A program made the translations under genes and the position numbers. The notes under the pieces are model-generated. The model searched no databases and was not told the DNA's origin. It saw nothing but the letters and a program-made list of their open reading frames with translations. Positions 19,600-29,918 of a DNA stretch of 64,000 nucleotides are shown in pieces (the stretch's first letter is position 1; the number at the start of each line of letters is the position of its first letter). Source of the DNA: Synechococcus sp. PCC 7335 (lineage in GTDB: Bacteria; Cyanobacteriota; Cyanobacteriia; Phormidesmidales; Phormidesmidaceae); NCBI RefSeq assembly GCF_000155595.1, contig NZ_DS989904.1:3567612-3631611 (forward strand), in the 5' to 3' direction.

Positions 19600-20604
19600 T
19601 TAAGGAGCTGAGGCTACGTCTTCAGAAGCTTGTGACCTCATCTCTAGCTTAGAAGTAGTGTCTCTTTTGTTACCAAAGCTAGCAACCATCACCCCTATGA
19701 TAACGACTACTAGGGTTATAGTCTGAATGGTAGAAGGACGTTCCCCGTTGAGGAGAAAGGCATAGGTAACTCCAAATACGGGAGAAAGTACTGTCAACCT
19801 ACCAATCGTTCTAGAATCAAGATTGTTGGTAGAGGCATACCAAAGAAACTGAGCGCAGACAATTACGACTAGCGCATACACTGCCATGAGTACCCATAAG
19901 CTGCCGCTAAAAGCGTCGGCAAAGTGCATAGGTCCGAAAAGCTTCATGGCAATGAAGAAGAAAATAATCGAAGAGATAAAATTGCGAGAAAAGACGACTA
20001 AGCGCAGCGAGGCGGCTCTAGCAATCATGACATGGTTAATCAGTGCAGAGACGGCAAAGACAATTGTAGAAAGTAGAATGAGCGCGTCACCTCGATTGAG
20101 ATCAAAGCCATTGGTCGCAAGTATAATTGCGACTACCCCACCTGCTATCAATGAAAAACCCAGCCACTCTAATCGCTGAATTGACTTGCCGAGCGCGATC
20201 GCCCCAGCTAGAGCAAACAAAACAGGGCCAAGTCGTCCTAACAGAACAGCATTCGTAACAGATGTCTCTCTAAGCCCCAGAAAGATCAAAGCAGAGAGCA
20301 GTGTTGCTAAACAGCCATTGATCAACAAACCAACAATCACTTTTGTCTCTGTACGCTTGAGATCTTCTACAATACTACCAAACCCAAACCAAAACCCAAC
20401 TACGAGGGCCGCGCAGAAGTTACCAATAAAAAGCACATTACAGAATGAGATTGGATGAGCCACACCCCCTAACTCAGCACCGCCTGCAATCAGTAGAGAA
20501 ATCAACGCAGGTCGAGAAGCCGATAGGGCTCTTGAAGCCACTAGCATGAGCTGTAGGCTCGAACGGCTTTTCGGAGGGCTTGGACTAGCTAGTTTTTCGC
20601 TCAT
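19600..20604 (-). CDS. EamA/DMT-family transporter
   Basis: A 334-residue protein with about ten hydrophobic helices in the two-repeat arrangement of the drug/metabolite transporter superfamily, for example GLRETSVTNAVLLGRLGPVLFALAGAI in the first repeat (about residues 108-135) and GRLTVLSPVFGVTYAFLLNGE in the second. These proteins usually export amino acids or other metabolites. The substrate is unknown. ATG 20604. It is divergent from glucokinase and convergent with speA. Confidence 0.8.
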   Translation of the reverse strand: MSEKLASPSPPKSRSSLQLMLVASRALSASRPALISLLIAGGAELGGVAHPISFCNVLFIGNFCAALVVGFWFGFGSIVEDLKRTETKVIVGLLINGCLATLLSALIFLGLRETSVTNAVLLGRLGPVLFALAGAIALGKSIQRLEWLGFSLIAGGVVAIILATNGFDLNRGDALILLSTIVFAVSALINHVMIARAASLRLVVFSRNFISSIIFFFIAMKLFGPMHFADAFSGSLWVLMAVYALVVIVCAQFLWYASTNNLDSRTIGRLTVLSPVFGVTYAFLLNGERPSTIQTITLVVVIIGVMVASFGNKRDTTSKLEMRSQASEDVASAP

Positions 20605-23330: not shown

Positions 23331-24155
23331 CTATGCACTGATCGCATTTATTTCTGTAGAGAGTACCGCTAATTTGCGAGCTAGGAACTGTCGCTGCCGG
23401 CGTGTTGTCTCGGGTGCCTCGATAATGCGGATAATGCGATCGCGCATTAAGCGGTGCTGCATCATAGTTGTTTCCAAATGAGCACTAAGTCCACAAAGGC
23501 GGCAGTTAATTTGATCTTCTGGCAAGCAAAAGAACACGCCTCCATCCGTGTGCTGAATGGTCTGCTCAAATAAATCAAAGACTTTGGCATTTCCTGTAAT
23601 GTTTTGGGCGTTCTCTAGACGACCATAAACGTGGAGACTCAAAAACGCCTGGTCGCTAGCATTTCCCATCTGATGGATGAGGCTGTGGTTGACTTCTCGA
23701 ACCATACCAGGGGAATAGGGAGCGACTTCCGGCTGACTCAGCCTCCTACCCTCAGAGTACCCTACCGCTAGTCGAATATCCTCTGCCTCCCCAGAATTAG
23801 TCTCTAACCGATAGATCAAATGCTCTGCTGCGCCAAAGCATTGAACAGCTCCCCATTCTGTCGCTCCGTGATCATGAATAGCGCTGAAATCACCTGGAAC
23901 CCAGCTCATCACCATGATCTCGAAGTGGCCACCGTGGAACACTAGCCGACGTCCGTAGCTATCGGCAGCTGGGTGATCAAAATCCGCCCAAGGTAGCAAA
24001 TCTTCTGTGGAAATGTTGGCGTCTAGAACAATTGCTTTAATCTGTGCTGGTGTAAGCAGGGATGCTTCTTGTAGTTGGCGAATCAGCCTTTGTAGCCTCA
24101 TAGGATAGACATCAATCGTAGTAGTCGGTGAAGGCGAGAGAATTGCGATAGTCAT
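23331..24155 (-). CDS. Cysteine-dioxygenase-type cupin protein
   Basis: The core matches the thiol dioxygenase cupin: metal-binding HDH in DFSAIHDHGATEWGAVQC (about residues 97-114), a lower His in FLSLHVYGRLENA, and LVFHGGHFEIMVMSW before it. Cysteine dioxygenase oxidises cysteine to cysteine sulfinate with Fe(II). At about 274 residues it is longer than classical CDO (~200), with an extra C-terminal region carrying a CRLCGL motif. The frame is open upstream to 24317, overlapping the next gene; the ATG at 24155 removes this and leaves a 77-base gap. It follows the ATP-grasp gene on the same strand, probably as an operon. Its substrate may be another thiol. Confidence 0.7.
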   Translation of the reverse strand: MTIAILSPSPTTTIDVYPMRLQRLIRQLQEASLLTPAQIKAIVLDANISTEDLLPWADFDHPAADSYGRRLVFHGGHFEIMVMSWVPGDFSAIHDHGATEWGAVQCFGAAEHLIYRLETNSGEAEDIRLAVGYSEGRRLSQPEVAPYSPGMVREVNHSLIHQMGNASDQAFLSLHVYGRLENAQNITGNAKVFDLFEQTIQHTDGGVFFCLPEDQINCRLCGLSAHLETTMMQHRLMRDRIIRIIEAPETTRRQRQFLARKLAVLSTEINAISA

Positions 24156-24232
24156 AGTTATAGTGATGATTCGGTGGATAGCTGAAGGGAGGAACAAGCA
24201 ATAGATAGAAAAGTAACAGGTGGATAAGTAAC

Positions 24233-25357
24233 CTATGCAAACTGGAGGTTGTCTTGGCAGTTTCGCTGAGGCGCGGCTGTCGTGAGTAAGGGGCGCTGTG
24301 AGAATGCCTTTAACCAATCTGTCAAGCGCTTCATCACAGGCTCACCGGTCAGTAGCTCTAGGCGTGCGAAGCCGCCGATATTACCTGCATTAATTTCGCT
24401 AATTCGCCAGGTACCCTCGTCGTCCATCAAAAAGTCATAGCCTAACGTGTGCAGTCCTAGCGCCTGATAGCGGCCGACGGTATGGCGAATGGCAGCGATT
24501 TCATCTTCTGTAATCTCAGCCAGTGTGCATTCGCCATCTCGGCTGACGTTGTTGACCCAGTGACCGCTCTTTGAGCGGCGTAAGTAGCTGCCATAGATTT
24601 CACCATCTACAACAACAACTCGCTTGTCTCCCTCGTCTGTCCGATGCAAATATCGACAGAACTGGAGCGGCTCTATTTGCCCCTGTTGGAGAAAGCTCAT
24701 GACGTGAGCGAATGTCGGGAATCGATGGGTTCCACTAAGCACGTTATCAACATAAAACACGCCTGCTTGGTACCAGATTTTGAAGACGCCGCGCCCGCCG
24801 CAGCTATTGGACTGCTTGGCAACAATAGTTTTATGCTGCTCGAAGAAGGCGATCGCTTGGTCATACTTATCAGTAGCGATGGCATCTGGAATGTAGCCTT
24901 CAGCCGTCTCTAACAAAAACTCAGCTCTCATCTGCGTCTGCTTACCCGTTGGGCTGTTGACAAACCGAGTGTACTTTTCCCATTCGGTCAAACGGCTTAA
25001 ATAACTGGGCGGAAAAGGCTTGAGCGTACGGCAAAAAACCAGGTCAACATCGGCTAGCGCTATTGGTCTAGCAGGCTCGTTTCCTATCGATAGAAAGTCA
25101 GGGTAGGTCAGCGCGCCAGCAACTGAGATCGCCGGAATATACGGGTGCTCTATGGGTAATGATTCAAAGCTGTCTTTTGAAGGCATTTCACGTCCACCCT
25201 CAGAAAGGACTTCAGAAATTGCCGTGGAAGTCACTCTAGGTGAAGGTAGATGGTAAAAAGACACGCTTTCATCTTGTGAGAGCCTTTGGTAGAAGGTGGG
25301 CACATCCAGCGGTGGACTGCCATAACGAGTAGGATCACATATGCTCAGTAGTTTCAT
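24233..25357 (-). CDS. GshB-like ATP-grasp ligase
   Basis: About 374 residues. ATP-grasp features: TIVAKQSNSCGGRGVFKIWY (nucleotide-binding lysine and glycine-rich loop, about residues 182-201), DEGDKRVVVVDGEIYGSYLRR, and the metal-ligand end GYDFLMDDEGTWRISEINAGNIGG. This order is that of glutathione synthetase GshB, which forms amide bonds from carboxylate, amine and ATP. The N-terminal ~120 residues are not recognisable as GshB. ATG 25357 is preferred to a GTG four codons earlier. Directly upstream of the CDO-like gene and divergent from the FMN-reductase/ATP-grasp fusion. A role in joining an amino acid or peptide is inferred. Confidence 0.7.
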   Translation of the reverse strand: MKLLSICDPTRYGSPPLDVPTFYQRLSQDESVSFYHLPSPRVTSTAISEVLSEGGREMPSKDSFESLPIEHPYIPAISVAGALTYPDFLSIGNEPARPIALADVDLVFCRTLKPFPPSYLSRLTEWEKYTRFVNSPTGKQTQMRAEFLLETAEGYIPDAIATDKYDQAIAFFEQHKTIVAKQSNSCGGRGVFKIWYQAGVFYVDNVLSGTHRFPTFAHVMSFLQQGQIEPLQFCRYLHRTDEGDKRVVVVDGEIYGSYLRRSKSGHWVNNVSRDGECTLAEITEDEIAAIRHTVGRYQALGLHTLGYDFLMDDEGTWRISEINAGNIGGFARLELLTGEPVMKRLTDWLKAFSQRPLLTTAAPQRNCQDNLQFA

Positions 25358-25659
25358 TAGTCGTTTCACAAGCGCTAGCGCAGGGTAGTGTAAGGCTCTA
25401 GATTGCTATCTCTAGCTTCTACAAGACACCACCAACATGAGGATTCTGGTACAAAAGGCTTAGAGAACACCTAAAGAATTCGAAGAACGCCCTAAACTAA
25501 CTCTTTTTATCTGCTGGTCGCTGTGTAATCAGCAAATTCTCATACAACGGTGAGTTGCGCTTGGTAGCGTTGATACGACTTCATCAAGCGCATCATCAAA
25601 CATCTGTTGGATAGCCGCTAAATAGCTAAGTCAATGGTTATAGCTGCGCCGCGAACACA

Positions 25660-27411
25660 ATGACTTACCCAAGCGTTCTTTTTATTAACTGCACCCTAAA
25701 ACAATCTCCCGAAGTGAGCAACACGGATGCTTTGTGGCGATGTGTTGCTCACTTCTATTGTCAGCAGGGTTGTCAGATAAGATCGCTTAGAACCGCAGAT
25801 CTACAGATTCTCTCAGGAACCACCTTAGATGAGGGTACAGGCGATGATTTTCCCCAGGTTTTATCGCAGATTCAGCAAGCAGATATCTTAATTCTCGGAA
25901 CGCCACTGATATGGGGAAATAGAACCTCAGAATGTCAGCGATTGATTGAGCGCCTTTATGGAACGCTTTCAGCTCAGGTAGATGCCGCGACAGGACAACC
26001 CATCTTGTATGGCAAGGTTTTTGGTTTGGTAGCAGTCGGCGATCAAGACAGCTGTGGACAAGGCGGCGCGATCGCTCACACCTGTCAGGATTTTAGTCGG
26101 CTAGGATGCATTCATCCACCCCACAATTGGGTTACTTGGTTTCGACCCATAGACACCGAAGCAGACTTTATTGAAGCTGAGGGAAAGCACGCTGTCTCTG
26201 TAAATAAAGCGGCCAAAGTGCTAGTAGAAAACTCTATTGCCCTTTTAGAAATGCTGCGAAACGAGCCACTATCAACCAACCTGCATGCAGCTACCCAAAC
26301 TGCGAAAAAGCTATCTCAAGCTGCAACAGTTGAGACTGGCACCTTTATTCTACCCAAGACAATCACCACTAAAGATTCGCCAAGCCAAAACGAAATCAGC
26401 TACCGCCATGTGACTAAGCGCATCTGGACAGTTATGCAAGCAGGCGCGCAGCGTGGATTCAAGTTTAAAGTTGTTAGCTTAGAAGATAGAACATTTCTAG
26501 CCGAACGAGCAGGAAAAGGATTTATCTACAAGATATATCCAGGTCACTTTTCCTTTCGCATTCGATATCAAGATTACGATGCTGAACAGCTAAAGTCTCA
26601 CAAACTGTCGCTCCTTGCTCAGCAAGGACTAGCGGTTCCTATCTCCTACGGGACGTTCAAATCGGCGGTAGATATTCCAGATGACTTACCTTCTCCTATC
26701 GTTGCTAAACCAGAGTCTGGATCGCTCAGCCAAAATGTATTTCCTAATCTAAAAACACCTGAACAGCTTCAGCAAGCAGCAGCGACCATTGAAGCCAGTG
26801 GCGATGTGATTAAGCTAGAGTCTCATATTTCAGGTCGTGATTACCGCGTGCTGGTGATCAACCATCAGTATGCAGGCTGCGTAGAAAGACGACCTGCGAA
26901 CGTTGTGGGCGATGGTCGGCGAACAATTCGCGAGCTATTTCACTTACGTAATCAAGAGCCAGGCAGAGGCGATCGCTACGAGACGCATACTACAATTCAC
27001 AAGCTAGTATTTGATCGTACTAGCCGCCAGCGACTAGAGTCAGCTGGCTATTCACTTGAGACAGTGCTCCTAGAAGGTGAAGTGTTCTACTTACAGGAGA
27101 AGATTACGGCTTCTACAGGATCAGACTACATAGACTGCAGTGATCAACTGCATAAAAGCATTGCCGAAGACTGTGTTGCCTTCTCTCATCGGTTCAAGAC
27201 ATTAACGCTAGGTTTTGATGTGATTACAACAGATATCACTCGTCCGCTAACTGAGGTAGGGGGTGCTTTCAACGAATACAACTTCCTACCGTACGTAGAT
27301 CTCCATGAAAACTGCAATATTGGTAAGAAGAGATCCGTTTGCGCTTTGATCTGGGACTATGTGGAAGCCAATGCGGATCGGATCGTAACGGAGCGGTTTG
27401 ATCCTTTCTAG
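25660..27411 (+). CDS. Fusion: NADPH-dependent FMN reductase-like + cyanophycin-synthetase-like ATP-grasp
   Basis: 583 residues in two parts. Residues 1-~190 resemble flavodoxin-fold FMN reductases (SVLFINCTLKQSP, then ADILILGTPLIWGNRTSECQ and a later YGKVFGLVAVGDQD). Residues ~245-583 are an ATP-grasp domain like the ligase half of CphA or GshF: FKFKVVSLEDRTFLAERAG, PIVAKPESGSLSQNVFP, KLESHISGRDYRVLVI followed by ERRPANVVGDGRRTIRELF, and the C-terminal GFDVITTDITRPLTEVGGAFN. ATP-grasp enzymes make amide or ester bonds. The fusion implies a redox step coupled to ligation. It is transcribed alone on the plus strand, convergent with the CDO/decarboxylase pair. The substrate is unknown. Confidence 0.7.
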   Translation: MTYPSVLFINCTLKQSPEVSNTDALWRCVAHFYCQQGCQIRSLRTADLQILSGTTLDEGTGDDFPQVLSQIQQADILILGTPLIWGNRTSECQRLIERLYGTLSAQVDAATGQPILYGKVFGLVAVGDQDSCGQGGAIAHTCQDFSRLGCIHPPHNWVTWFRPIDTEADFIEAEGKHAVSVNKAAKVLVENSIALLEMLRNEPLSTNLHAATQTAKKLSQAATVETGTFILPKTITTKDSPSQNEISYRHVTKRIWTVMQAGAQRGFKFKVVSLEDRTFLAERAGKGFIYKIYPGHFSFRIRYQDYDAEQLKSHKLSLLAQQGLAVPISYGTFKSAVDIPDDLPSPIVAKPESGSLSQNVFPNLKTPEQLQQAAATIEASGDVIKLESHISGRDYRVLVINHQYAGCVERRPANVVGDGRRTIRELFHLRNQEPGRGDRYETHTTIHKLVFDRTSRQRLESAGYSLETVLLEGEVFYLQEKITASTGSDYIDCSDQLHKSIAEDCVAFSHRFKTLTLGFDVITTDITRPLTEVGGAFNEYNFLPYVDLHENCNIGKKRSVCALIWDYVEANADRIVTERFDPF

Positions 27412-27495
27412 GTCTTTTCTAGGTCTACTTATTGCGACTAAACAGCCCACTTACTGGAGTAGAGTGCATTGCGATCACGTCGCGGATTTGCACAT

Positions 27496-28002
27496 TCATA
27501 GTACTATCCCTTTTTGAGCATCTTCAGAATATATGTGAAAGGTCAGCCCGGCTTCTAAACATCTAACGCTATGAATCCAGTTATCATAGCGTCCAGCCTG
27601 ACCGGAAAACCAAGTCGTATCAGCAGGTAAGAATGTTTGTGTATCCTCCAACTGTAGTTTGCTTTGCGAAGTACAAGAGAAGGTATCTATCTCAAAAACG
27701 CCACTGACAACATGATAGAACGAAAAGGCAGGGTGCCCGTGAATGCGCGTTTTGACTTGTTTGTCCCAGCATAAAATCAAAGCCTCAAACCGCTGATCGC
27801 AGCTATTGCAATCTTCTAGGGCTTCTTTGGCAATACAGTTGCGAGTGTAGGTATTTGGACGAAAGGGAAGATGATGCAAGCTTGGAAAGGACCTGCCTTT
27901 CATTTGGCACTGTAGCCAGGAACCAAGACTCATATTGTCTTTTGTTTTATCCCTATAGCATAGGAGCTGATGAAAAAGAAAGTCTAGATCAAGCGTGTCC
28001 AT
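27496..28002 (-). CDS. Cysteine dioxygenase-like cupin, coupled to a PLP decarboxylase
   Basis: About 168 residues, near the CDO length. Motifs: YTRNCIAKEALEDCNSCDQRFEALILCWDKQ (about residues 52-82; given as a region), metal ligands in KTRIHGHPAFSFYHVVSG, and the lower His in LTFHIYSED. Start: ATG 28002 shares its A with the TGA stop of the decarboxylase (TGATG), and AGGAG lies about eight bases upstream, so the two are translationally coupled. CDO makes cysteine sulfinate and a coupled decarboxylase could make hypotaurine. Compared with the CDO at 23331 it is shorter and only distantly similar. Confidence 0.78.
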   Translation of the reverse strand: MDTLDLDFLFHQLLCYRDKTKDNMSLGSWLQCQMKGRSFPSLHHLPFRPNTYTRNCIAKEALEDCNSCDQRFEALILCWDKQVKTRIHGHPAFSFYHVVSGVFEIDTFSCTSQSKLQLEDTQTFLPADTTWFSGQAGRYDNWIHSVRCLEAGLTFHIYSEDAQKGIVL

Positions 28003-29468
28003 CAGCACATCTCCTGCTCTAACCGCCGGGCGATCGCTACTAAAGCCTCGAAAAAACGCTCGATGTCCTCAGAGCGGGTTTGATTGTTGCAAATGACCAA
28101 ACGAAAAACCGTTTTGCCTTCTACTTGAGCGTAGTTCACCATCGCAGTTCCGGTTTCCCACAGCGCCTGTCGCACTTTCAGCGTCAGCTCATCGGCCTGC
28201 TGTTTGTTCTGAGGTAGATACCGAAAGCATAGGTTCACCGACTGTCTCGAAGACACTAGCTCCAGCGAAGGATGCTTATCGATGATAGTTTCTGCTCGCT
28301 GAGCCAGCTCAAAGTAGCTGTCGATTAGCCTTTCCCAGCCGCGATCGCCTAGGTGCCGCCAGGCTAGCCAAAGCTTGAGTGCATCCACACGCCGACCGCA
28401 GTGCATAGTTGCAGGGCCAAAGTCTGTTGGTAGTTCTTCTATGGGCAATTCTGTTGATGATGTTGATGATTCTGTAGGCACTTCCCCAGCAGAGACTTCA
28501 TCGTGGAATAGATAGTCGGTGCCTGCAGTAGAGAAAGTCCTTAACATTTGACCACGCTGCTTGACCAACAGCAAAGAACACATCAGCGTCATCCCCATCA
28601 TTTTGTGTGCGTCCCACACCAGAGAGTCTGCTTGGTTTGCCCCAGCCATTAGCTGTCGATGAGTAGCGCTCAGCGATACGCTAGCACCCCAAGCTCCATC
28701 GATATGAAACCACAGGTTTTCCTGGTGGGCGATCGCGCTAATCTCTTCAAACGGATCGAAGGCACCTCTTACAGTTGTTCCAGCAGTTCCGGCAACAAAG
28801 AAAGGAATAGAGCCTTGTACACGCGCTCTATCTACTAGCTCAGATAATGCCTCCGGCTTCATTCTGCCATCGCTGTCTACAGGAACTTTCCATAGCTGCT
28901 CTGTTCCTAATCCCAATATATGAGCAGCTTTATCAAAAGAATAGTGCGCCTCTCTAGAGACAAAAGCAACTAGTTTGGGGCCGCTGGTCATACCGTCCTG
29001 CTTAACAGTCGGTAGAACATGATGGCGAGCGATCGCCATCGCCATCAAATTTCCGTTACTCCCTCCGGTTGTAAACTGCCCATCGGCACTCTTAAACCCT
29101 AAGATGCCAGACATCTTAGTAACTAGCGCCTGCTCGATTAAAGTAGCAGCCGGCGCCACCTCGTAGGTATACATCGAGGTATTTGTCGCACTCGCAAGCA
29201 TATCACCCATGAAACAGGCTGAGTTGAAACCGCCCCACAGCTGATTAAAATAGCTAGGATGAGCTGTCTTCAGCGCGTTATTCAAATAGCTAGTAATCTC
29301 CGTTCGCAGTTCTTCTACAGGTTTACCCTCATTTGGTAAATCCAAAGAAAGTTGAGATTTCAAAACGTTAGGATCTATTGGTTTAGTAAGCAGACTCGAC
29401 GAATTAGCTGTCGAAAAGAAATTTTCAAGCTGCTGCAACAAGTTGTAGTATTTGGAGGCTTTGAACAT
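28002..29468 (-). CDS. PLP-dependent group II decarboxylase (cysteine sulfinate/glutamate/aspartate type)
   Basis: About 488 residues with the fold-type I decarboxylase pattern: GFKSADGQFTTGGSNGNLMA, FHIDGAWGASVSLS and the PLP lysine in LVWDAHKMMGMTLMCS. Members decarboxylate glutamate, aspartate, cysteine sulfinate or aromatic amino acids; the sequence shows the aliphatic/acidic type more than the aromatic one, but specificity cannot be read with certainty. ATG 29468 is preferred over a TTG three codons upstream. The downstream CDO overlaps its stop codon, arguing for cysteine sulfinate as substrate. An attenuator-like hairpin separates it from the small peptide gene upstream. Confidence 0.78.
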   Translation of the reverse strand: MFKASKYYNLLQQLENFFSTANSSSLLTKPIDPNVLKSQLSLDLPNEGKPVEELRTEITSYLNNALKTAHPSYFNQLWGGFNSACFMGDMLASATNTSMYTYEVAPAATLIEQALVTKMSGILGFKSADGQFTTGGSNGNLMAMAIARHHVLPTVKQDGMTSGPKLVAFVSREAHYSFDKAAHILGLGTEQLWKVPVDSDGRMKPEALSELVDRARVQGSIPFFVAGTAGTTVRGAFDPFEEISAIAHQENLWFHIDGAWGASVSLSATHRQLMAGANQADSLVWDAHKMMGMTLMCSLLLVKQRGQMLRTFSTAGTDYLFHDEVSAGEVPTESSTSSTELPIEELPTDFGPATMHCGRRVDALKLWLAWRHLGDRGWERLIDSYFELAQRAETIIDKHPSLELVSSRQSVNLCFRYLPQNKQQADELTLKVRQALWETGTAMVNYAQVEGKTVFRLVICNNQTRSEDIERFFEALVAIARRLEQEMC

Positions 29469-29603
29469 AATCGACAAGTAGATTAGGGGTCATGCCGACT
29501 ATAGCAATGTACAAGGATGATTCCCTTGAACTACCTTGTAACTACGCAGTGAAATCTAGAGATAGCGGTCCTTGTACGTAGCTTTCTGATAATCATTCGA
29601 GAT

Positions 29604-29642
29604 AAAAACAAAGAGGCCAACGCTAAGAATCGACCCCCTTTG
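29604..29642 (-). terminator. Terminator or attenuator between the small peptide gene and the decarboxylase
   Basis: Read on the minus strand, AAAGGGG pairs with CCTCTTT (one G-T pair) across a loop of about 17 bases and is followed by GTTTTTA. It would let most transcripts end after the peptide gene while some read into the enzymes, as is common for precursor peptides. Confidence 0.55.
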
Positions 29643-29684
29643 AATTAGTAATGCTGTGTCGGAATGAAATTTCCAACCGCTCAT

Positions 29685-29918
29685 CTAGTGATGATGGCCG
29701 TGACCATGACCATGACCAAAACCGAAGAATTTCTTCTTTTTGTACTTAAAGAAGTTTTTCTCACCTGTCTCTTCAGCAGGTTCGGCGTTATCTTCACTCG
29801 CAGCGTGATTACCGCCTGCTACTTGATCTAGTTGCTCCGGTGAGAGCTGCTCAGACGGATCTCGACCTGCCGAAGTCTGCTCTTCGAAGGCTGATTCATT
29901 TTCTTTCTTTATACTCAT
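29685..29918 (-). CDS. Putative RiPP precursor peptide with double-glycine leader and Gly/His tail
   Basis: 77 residues from ATG 29918 (the frame extends 13 codons further, less likely). The N-terminal part is acidic and helical and ends in LSPEQLDQVAGG, a double-glycine leader like those of cyanobacterial bacteriocin-type precursors. The putative core after GG has a Glu/Asp-rich half, a Lys/Phe/Tyr-rich half (FFKYKKKKFFGFG) and ends HGHGHGHHH, a strong metal-binding candidate. It has no cysteine, so it cannot be a lanthipeptide or a thiol substrate of the neighbouring dioxygenases. It is upstream of the decarboxylase/CDO pair on the same strand. No C39 peptidase transporter is in the window. 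Confidence 0.7.
   Translation of the reverse strand: MSIKKENESAFEEQTSAGRDPSEQLSPEQLDQVAGGNHAASEDNAEPAEETGEKNFFKYKKKKFFGFGHGHGHGHHH

Follow-up and report, generated by a model that had tools for sequence, protein, structure and literature searches.

A locus of Synechococcus sp. PCC 7335 that may join a taurine arm to a cyanobacterial small-peptide module

A set of biosynthetic genes found in a 64,000-nucleotide stretch of the genome of Synechococcus sp. PCC 7335 (contig NZ_DS989904.1, positions 3,567,612 to 3,631,611; hereafter referred to as the window, with a G+C content of 47.4%) comprises, as judged from its sequence, two linked pieces. These are a pair encoding a cysteine sulfinic acid decarboxylase-like protein (CSAD) and a divergent thiol-dioxygenase-like cupin (CDO2), and a cyanobacterial module encoding a glutathione synthetase-like (GshB-like) ATP-grasp ligase and another cupin of the thiol dioxygenase type (CDO1); a fusion of a flavodoxin-like to an ATP-grasp domain and an EamA-family exporter accompany them. 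It is proposed, with a probability of about 0.5, that the locus joins a taurine arm to a small-peptide (amide) arm, and it is held equally probable that the pathway yields an exported amide or small peptide containing cysteine sulfinate or hypotaurine. Protein families, motifs, gene neighbourhoods and co-occurrence form the basis of the proposal, and all the substrates, the product and the amide-arm reactions are inferred from these. Little is known about taurine and sulfinate metabolites in cyanobacteria. The compact, patchy module, with a fused ligase and acetyltransferase in some genomes and a thiol dioxygenase, is encountered from filamentous marine forms to the picocyanobacteria and suggests a small peptide containing sulfur, made and perhaps released by these organisms. 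PCC 7335 itself is a marine cyanobacterium that can be cultured in the laboratory.

The GshB-like ligase was searched for at E <= 1e-30 in a sample of 388 genomes of the class, with matches in 20 of these and an orthologue in 18/388 once two genomes carrying only a 38-40% paralogue (G016 and G019) are removed. The loci compared were 22 orthologue loci from 21 genomes, including two extra picocyanobacteria and G391, the ligase of which was identified in its genomic region and not in the class-sample search; four loci with a 35-40% paralogue (L113-L116), next to which no CDO1 was found, were excluded before counting. At 19 of the 22 loci the ligase gene has CDO1 within 3 kb, the three exceptions being two loci that stop at a contig edge and G065, which carries CDO1 on a different contig. 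Genes for EamA proteins and for GNAT-family acetyltransferases are each present within 3 kb at 13/22 loci (the window's own EamA gene is 3.6 kb off, and five of the GNAT genes are fusions), and two further families, c7 and c8, each at 7/22. In the hand-picked genomes, for which some of those counted as lacking the ligase (the 'others') lie outside the class sample and were not searched for it, as is also the case for G012, CDO1 is present in 18 of 19 genomes with a known GshB-like gene and 0 of 36 others (55 genomes), GNAT in 13/16 versus 0/12, and c8 in 15/19 versus 2/26. The module occurs in 5 of 201 Cyanobiaceae genomes, and the order c7-c8-EamA-GshB::GNAT-CDO1 is shared by five picocyanobacteria. 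Because of this adjacency and fusion, the GshB-like, CDO1, GNAT and EamA proteins very probably act in one pathway. The GshB-like gene is accessory and patchy in its distribution, which is what a specialised metabolite, and not a housekeeping function, would lead one to expect.

The first inspection of the DNA, made from the sequence alone, had described six clustered genes of biosynthetic character, on which the open reading frames (ORFs) and the family matches agree, and had taken their independent occurrence in other genomes as the observation that would speak against a common locus. The enzyme families were found instead to be neighbours in other cyanobacteria, so that the grouping is more than chance.

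The CSAD gene (28002-29468, minus strand, open frame to 29477) encodes a pyridoxal phosphate-dependent decarboxylase (Pyridoxal_deC, 260 bits), which is the sole match at E <= 1e-30 within its own genome. Among solved structures it matches cysteine sulfinic acid decarboxylases best (E 2e-92; 313 and 310 bits), followed by GADL1 and GADs at 294-281 bits, and the top six (E <= 1e-80) are all CSAD, GADL1 or GAD, with CSAD first. Agnello et al. in 2013 reportedly described a three-residue motif for cysteine-sulfinate selectivity, F-19aa-S-aa-Y, the position of which presumably decides between cysteine sulfinic acid and glutamate. The active-site stretch of the locus protein reads QLW...NTSMY, giving W-S-Y in the alignment versus F-S-Y in CSADs, Y-S-Y in GADL1 and S-N-F in GAD. 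The ATG of the CDO2 gene (27496-28002, minus strand, open frame to 28008) shares one base with the stop codon of CSAD. CDO2 is a divergent protein recognised by motif alignment, its YTRN, IHGHP, IHSV and FHIYS positions aligning with the motifs of CDO1; its CDO_I score of 13.2 bits falls below the Pfam cut-off of 23, as does that of its relative at L081 (18.0 bits), and no CDO was found among its solved-structure matches at E <= 1. The CSAD-CDO2 pairing recurs at L014 and L081, and CDO2, even less common than the fusion, was found in 4 of 36 genomes searched, all four of which also carry the fusion and CSAD. A CDO1-type gene adjoins the fusion in place of CDO2 in G072 and G128.

On these features the CSAD-CDO2 pair looks like a taurine pathway, which suits the sequence-only reading's guess of a taurine- or hypotaurine-containing product. 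The 2013 work of Agnello et al. on PCC 7335, which is cited in PMC8153620 and PMC12585060, is said to concern CSAD and taurine; the locus shares with the reported system a CSAD-like decarboxylase and a CDO-like cupin in one predicted operon, and differs in the additional presence of ligases, a second CDO, the fusion and an exporter. The suggestion that the locus is new holds only in part, since an excerpt of PMC8153620 reports that bacteria have a taurine pathway and that CSAD from Synechococcus sp. PCC 7335 has been expressed and purified; the taurine arm is therefore not new. For the GshB-like/CDO1 module no published description was found, which is weak evidence of novelty given a thin coverage of the subscription literature; an excerpt of PMC2922099 describes other operons of cupin, ATP-grasp and Rieske genes, with a different (diiron-cupin) oxygenase.

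The fusion gene (25660-27411) lies on the plus strand between the minus-strand GshB-like/CDO1 and CSAD/CDO2 pairs. It is present in 5 of 63 genomes of the order and 8 of 388 of the class, and at nine loci of the genome collection in a pattern-limited search. The possibility that the window merely holds two unrelated neighbouring pathways, with CSAD and CDO2 supplying taurine as an osmolyte, a separate GshB-like/CDO1 module and the fusion belonging to only one of them, is a serious one, though somewhat unlikely, and the distribution of the genes bears on it in both directions. G020, G204, G232, G238, G261, G267 and the five picocyanobacteria have GshB-like, CDO1 and EamA genes but neither CSAD nor the fusion, and CSAD occurs without the ligase in G057 and G166, as separate pathways would have it. 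Against such a separation, the fusion is confined, where searched, to genomes with the GshB-like gene (8/8 class genomes; Fisher p ~1e-11, a value that treats unsearched genomes as absent and ignores relatedness) and is mostly accompanied by CSAD (8 of 10 fusion-bearing genomes, two of them with partial genes at contig ends, which were scored as present in a Fisher test of the fusion against CSAD). CSAD lies 0.1-3.6 kb from the fusion at five of ten loci and EamA 0.2-5.1 kb from it at five of ten; moreover, G013 carries CSAD, EamA, GshB-like and CDO1 genes in a single tight row and G072 has the whole set minus CDO2, plus GNAT, inside ~7 kb.

CDO1 (23331-24155, minus strand, open frame to 24317) is assigned to the thiol dioxygenases both by the family cut-off, its Pfam CDO_I score of 29.8 bits exceeding 23, and by its predicted iron-binding and substrate motifs (SYGR, HDHG, LIHQMGN and SLHVYG), which are conserved across the aligned relatives and align to those of solved CDOs; it also has a conserved C-terminal extension. 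The GshB-like gene (24233-25357, open frame to 25369), likewise on the minus strand, precedes CDO1 with 77 bases between the two, and its product matches the GSH-S_ATP/RimK families. This ligase has an ATP-grasp fold with E. coli GshB as the nearest solved structure (E 8e-9). Identity with glutathione synthetase was nevertheless rejected, as it attains 62.9 bits against the GshB NCBIfam equivalog cut-off of 272, and its relatives, unlike GshB, have GNAT and CDO1 as fusion partners or neighbours.

The N-terminal domain of the fusion (residues ~1-225; FMN_red, 42 bits) has the roseoflavin biosynthesis enzyme RosB as its only solved relative at E <= 0.01 (2.6e-21, residues 6-219) and as the top fold match in a search with a structure model. 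The model is moderate (mean predicted local distance difference test score 62.2, predicted template-modelling score 0.43, the ATP-grasp half largely below 50), and the fold search is therefore trusted for the N-terminal domain alone. A RosB function was rejected because the alignment ends at RosB residue 223 of 257, short of the specialised C-terminus, which according to an excerpt of PMC11039241 comprises 52 residues, is required for roseoflavin and is missing from RosB relatives of less than 40% identity. The C-terminal half (residues ~312-570) resembles the ATP-grasp part of cyanophycin synthetase (CphA), with 250-260 residues matched to each of two models (162.3 bits, cut-off 877, and 159.2 bits, cut-off 850). 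The fusion fails these full-length cut-offs and was not accepted as a cyanophycin synthetase; it differs from CphA in its flavodoxin-like N-terminal half and in having no sequence remaining for a Mur-ligase-like half. The ATP-grasp residues K350, E387, D394, R396, D520, E539 and N541 are invariant in 10/10 aligned fusion relatives. N-acetylglutaminylglutamine synthetases join GNAT and ATP-grasp functions in making an acetylated dipeptide, and their family model (NCBIfam TIGR03103) is related to the ATP-grasp half at 66 bits; the cut-off of 569 is missed, the GNAT of the module is joined instead to the GshB-like ligase, and the set also includes a thiol dioxygenase.

In the proposed pathway, CDO2 would oxidise cysteine to cysteine sulfinate, from which CSAD would form hypotaurine by decarboxylation. 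In the other arm, CDO1 would produce a sulfinate from cysteine or a cysteine-containing intermediate and the GshB-like ligase would form an amide bond on the resulting sulfur amino acid; in the relatives, the GNAT of the phosphinothricin/arsinothricin type would acetylate an amine, and the EamA protein may export the product. The fusion could take hypotaurine or taurine as its amine substrate and attach it to a carboxylate on the other arm's product, and its role as the link between the two arms is put forward tentatively, at less than even odds. Even more speculative is the idea of an exported and so far undescribed cyanobacterial class of 'sulfinopeptides', in which CDO1 and the GshB-like ligase would make a small cysteine-sulfinate peptide, GNAT, fused to the ligase or encoded next to it, would N-acetylate it in most lineages, and the fusion would cap it with hypotaurine or taurine in a rarer group including the host strain. 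A bolder variant, which is hard to credit, has the RosB-like half of the fusion act on flavin mononucleotide itself and yield a flavin-amino-acid conjugate.

Several observations weigh against the joining of a taurine arm to an amide arm. The two arms are frequently on separate contigs, and two fusion loci with ~9-10 kb flanks (L008 and L020) have no adjacent CSAD, EamA, GshB-like or CDO1 gene. In G011 and G244 the search did not find the fusion together with CSAD, G057 (77%) and G166 (55%) have CSAD but no fusion, and CDO2 occurs in just 4 of the 10 fusion-bearing genomes. In the window's own genome there is neither a GNAT orthologue (E <= 1e-25) nor c8, and the locus CSAD carries W where the motif reported for cysteine sulfinic acid has F. 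The specificity of ATP-grasp and GNAT enzymes is also not readable from sequence.

The nature of the GNAT leads to a further alternative, in which CDO1, the ligase, GNAT and EamA would constitute an antimetabolite or toxin-like system, with a peptide that holds an aspartate or glutamate analogue bearing a sulfinate group and the acetyltransferase, similar to PAT and ArsN1, protecting the producer. The nearest named relatives of the module GNAT in NCBIfam are indeed enzymes that acetylate arsinothricin and phosphinothricin (112, 105 and 82 bits), which protect against tetrahedral glutamate analogues, and the exporter and the patchy spread noted above would suit such a system. Every one of these scores is, however, below its curated cut-off (170, 210 and 300), and no GNAT was found in G000, G012, G013 and G018, three of which have the GshB-like gene, an odd situation for self-protection; the antimetabolite explanation is considered improbable.

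A short peptide encoded at 29685-29918 (minus strand, open frame to 29957) had been described as precursor-like. Its reading as a ribosomally synthesised and post-translationally modified peptide (RiPP), modified by the ATP-grasp enzymes, would draw on its GG-type leader (VAGG), on its gene preceding that for CSAD in the same orientation and on a weak match of the GshB-like ligase to a model of ATP-grasp peptide maturases (30.5 bits against a cut-off of 350). This reading is very improbable, since a search of 18 genomes found the peptide in the window's own and in none of the 17 others, 9 of which have the fusion, and a comparison of 1,284 small ORFs from around the core genes showed no window ORF in common with another genome. 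For want of a conserved precursor peptide adjoining the ligase, the RiPP or graspetide candidate was rejected, and with it the peptide-tailoring system suggested at first becomes unlikely. The peptide has a His/Gly-rich tail and weakly resembles CTB-family bacteriocins (E 0.0011; 19 bits against a cut-off of 32), and is judged from these comparisons an orphan unrelated to the cluster.

An ORF check of the window recovered all six of the ORFs first described at their coordinates. The likely ATG starts at 24155, 25357, 28002, 29468 and 29918 are predictions, picked by hand from the listed starts. The extent of the cluster requires revision at both ends, with the peptide taken out and the set extended further left to an EamA-family (drug/metabolite) exporter gene (19600-20604, minus strand; Pfam EamA, 68 bits) that had been missed. 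Its relatives adjoin the fusion, CSAD or the GshB-like/CDO1 genes in other genomes, and on this basis it is counted as a member; genes for a glucokinase and an Na+/H+ antiporter separate it from the remaining set.

Some additional features were observed at the related loci. Among the five picocyanobacteria, the ligase gene is interrupted in G534 (L163), and in G015 (L083) both the GshB-like gene and CDO1 are interrupted, as would fit an accessory pathway in decay. The c7 protein combines a ferric-reductase-like membrane domain with a Rieske domain and c8 is a membrane protein with a conserved Cys-rich stretch, for which neither a Pfam match nor a useful solved relative was found; they recur with the module (L007:3909-5743, L008:12699-14532, L108:11232-13076), and a role in electron transfer is possible. 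In three of the picocyanobacterial operons, out of five, CDO1 is directly next to a gene for a circularly permuted ATP-grasp type 2 protein (L109:6438-7907, L110:6993-8462, L162:6375-7847), which may be an additional ligase of the pathway. At L113, L115 and L116 (G016, G013 and G018) the GshB-like paralogue adjoins a gene for a plant-type asparaginase/isoaspartyl peptidase (Pfam Asparaginase_2 in L115), which suggests another uncharacterised setting for a ligase of this kind.
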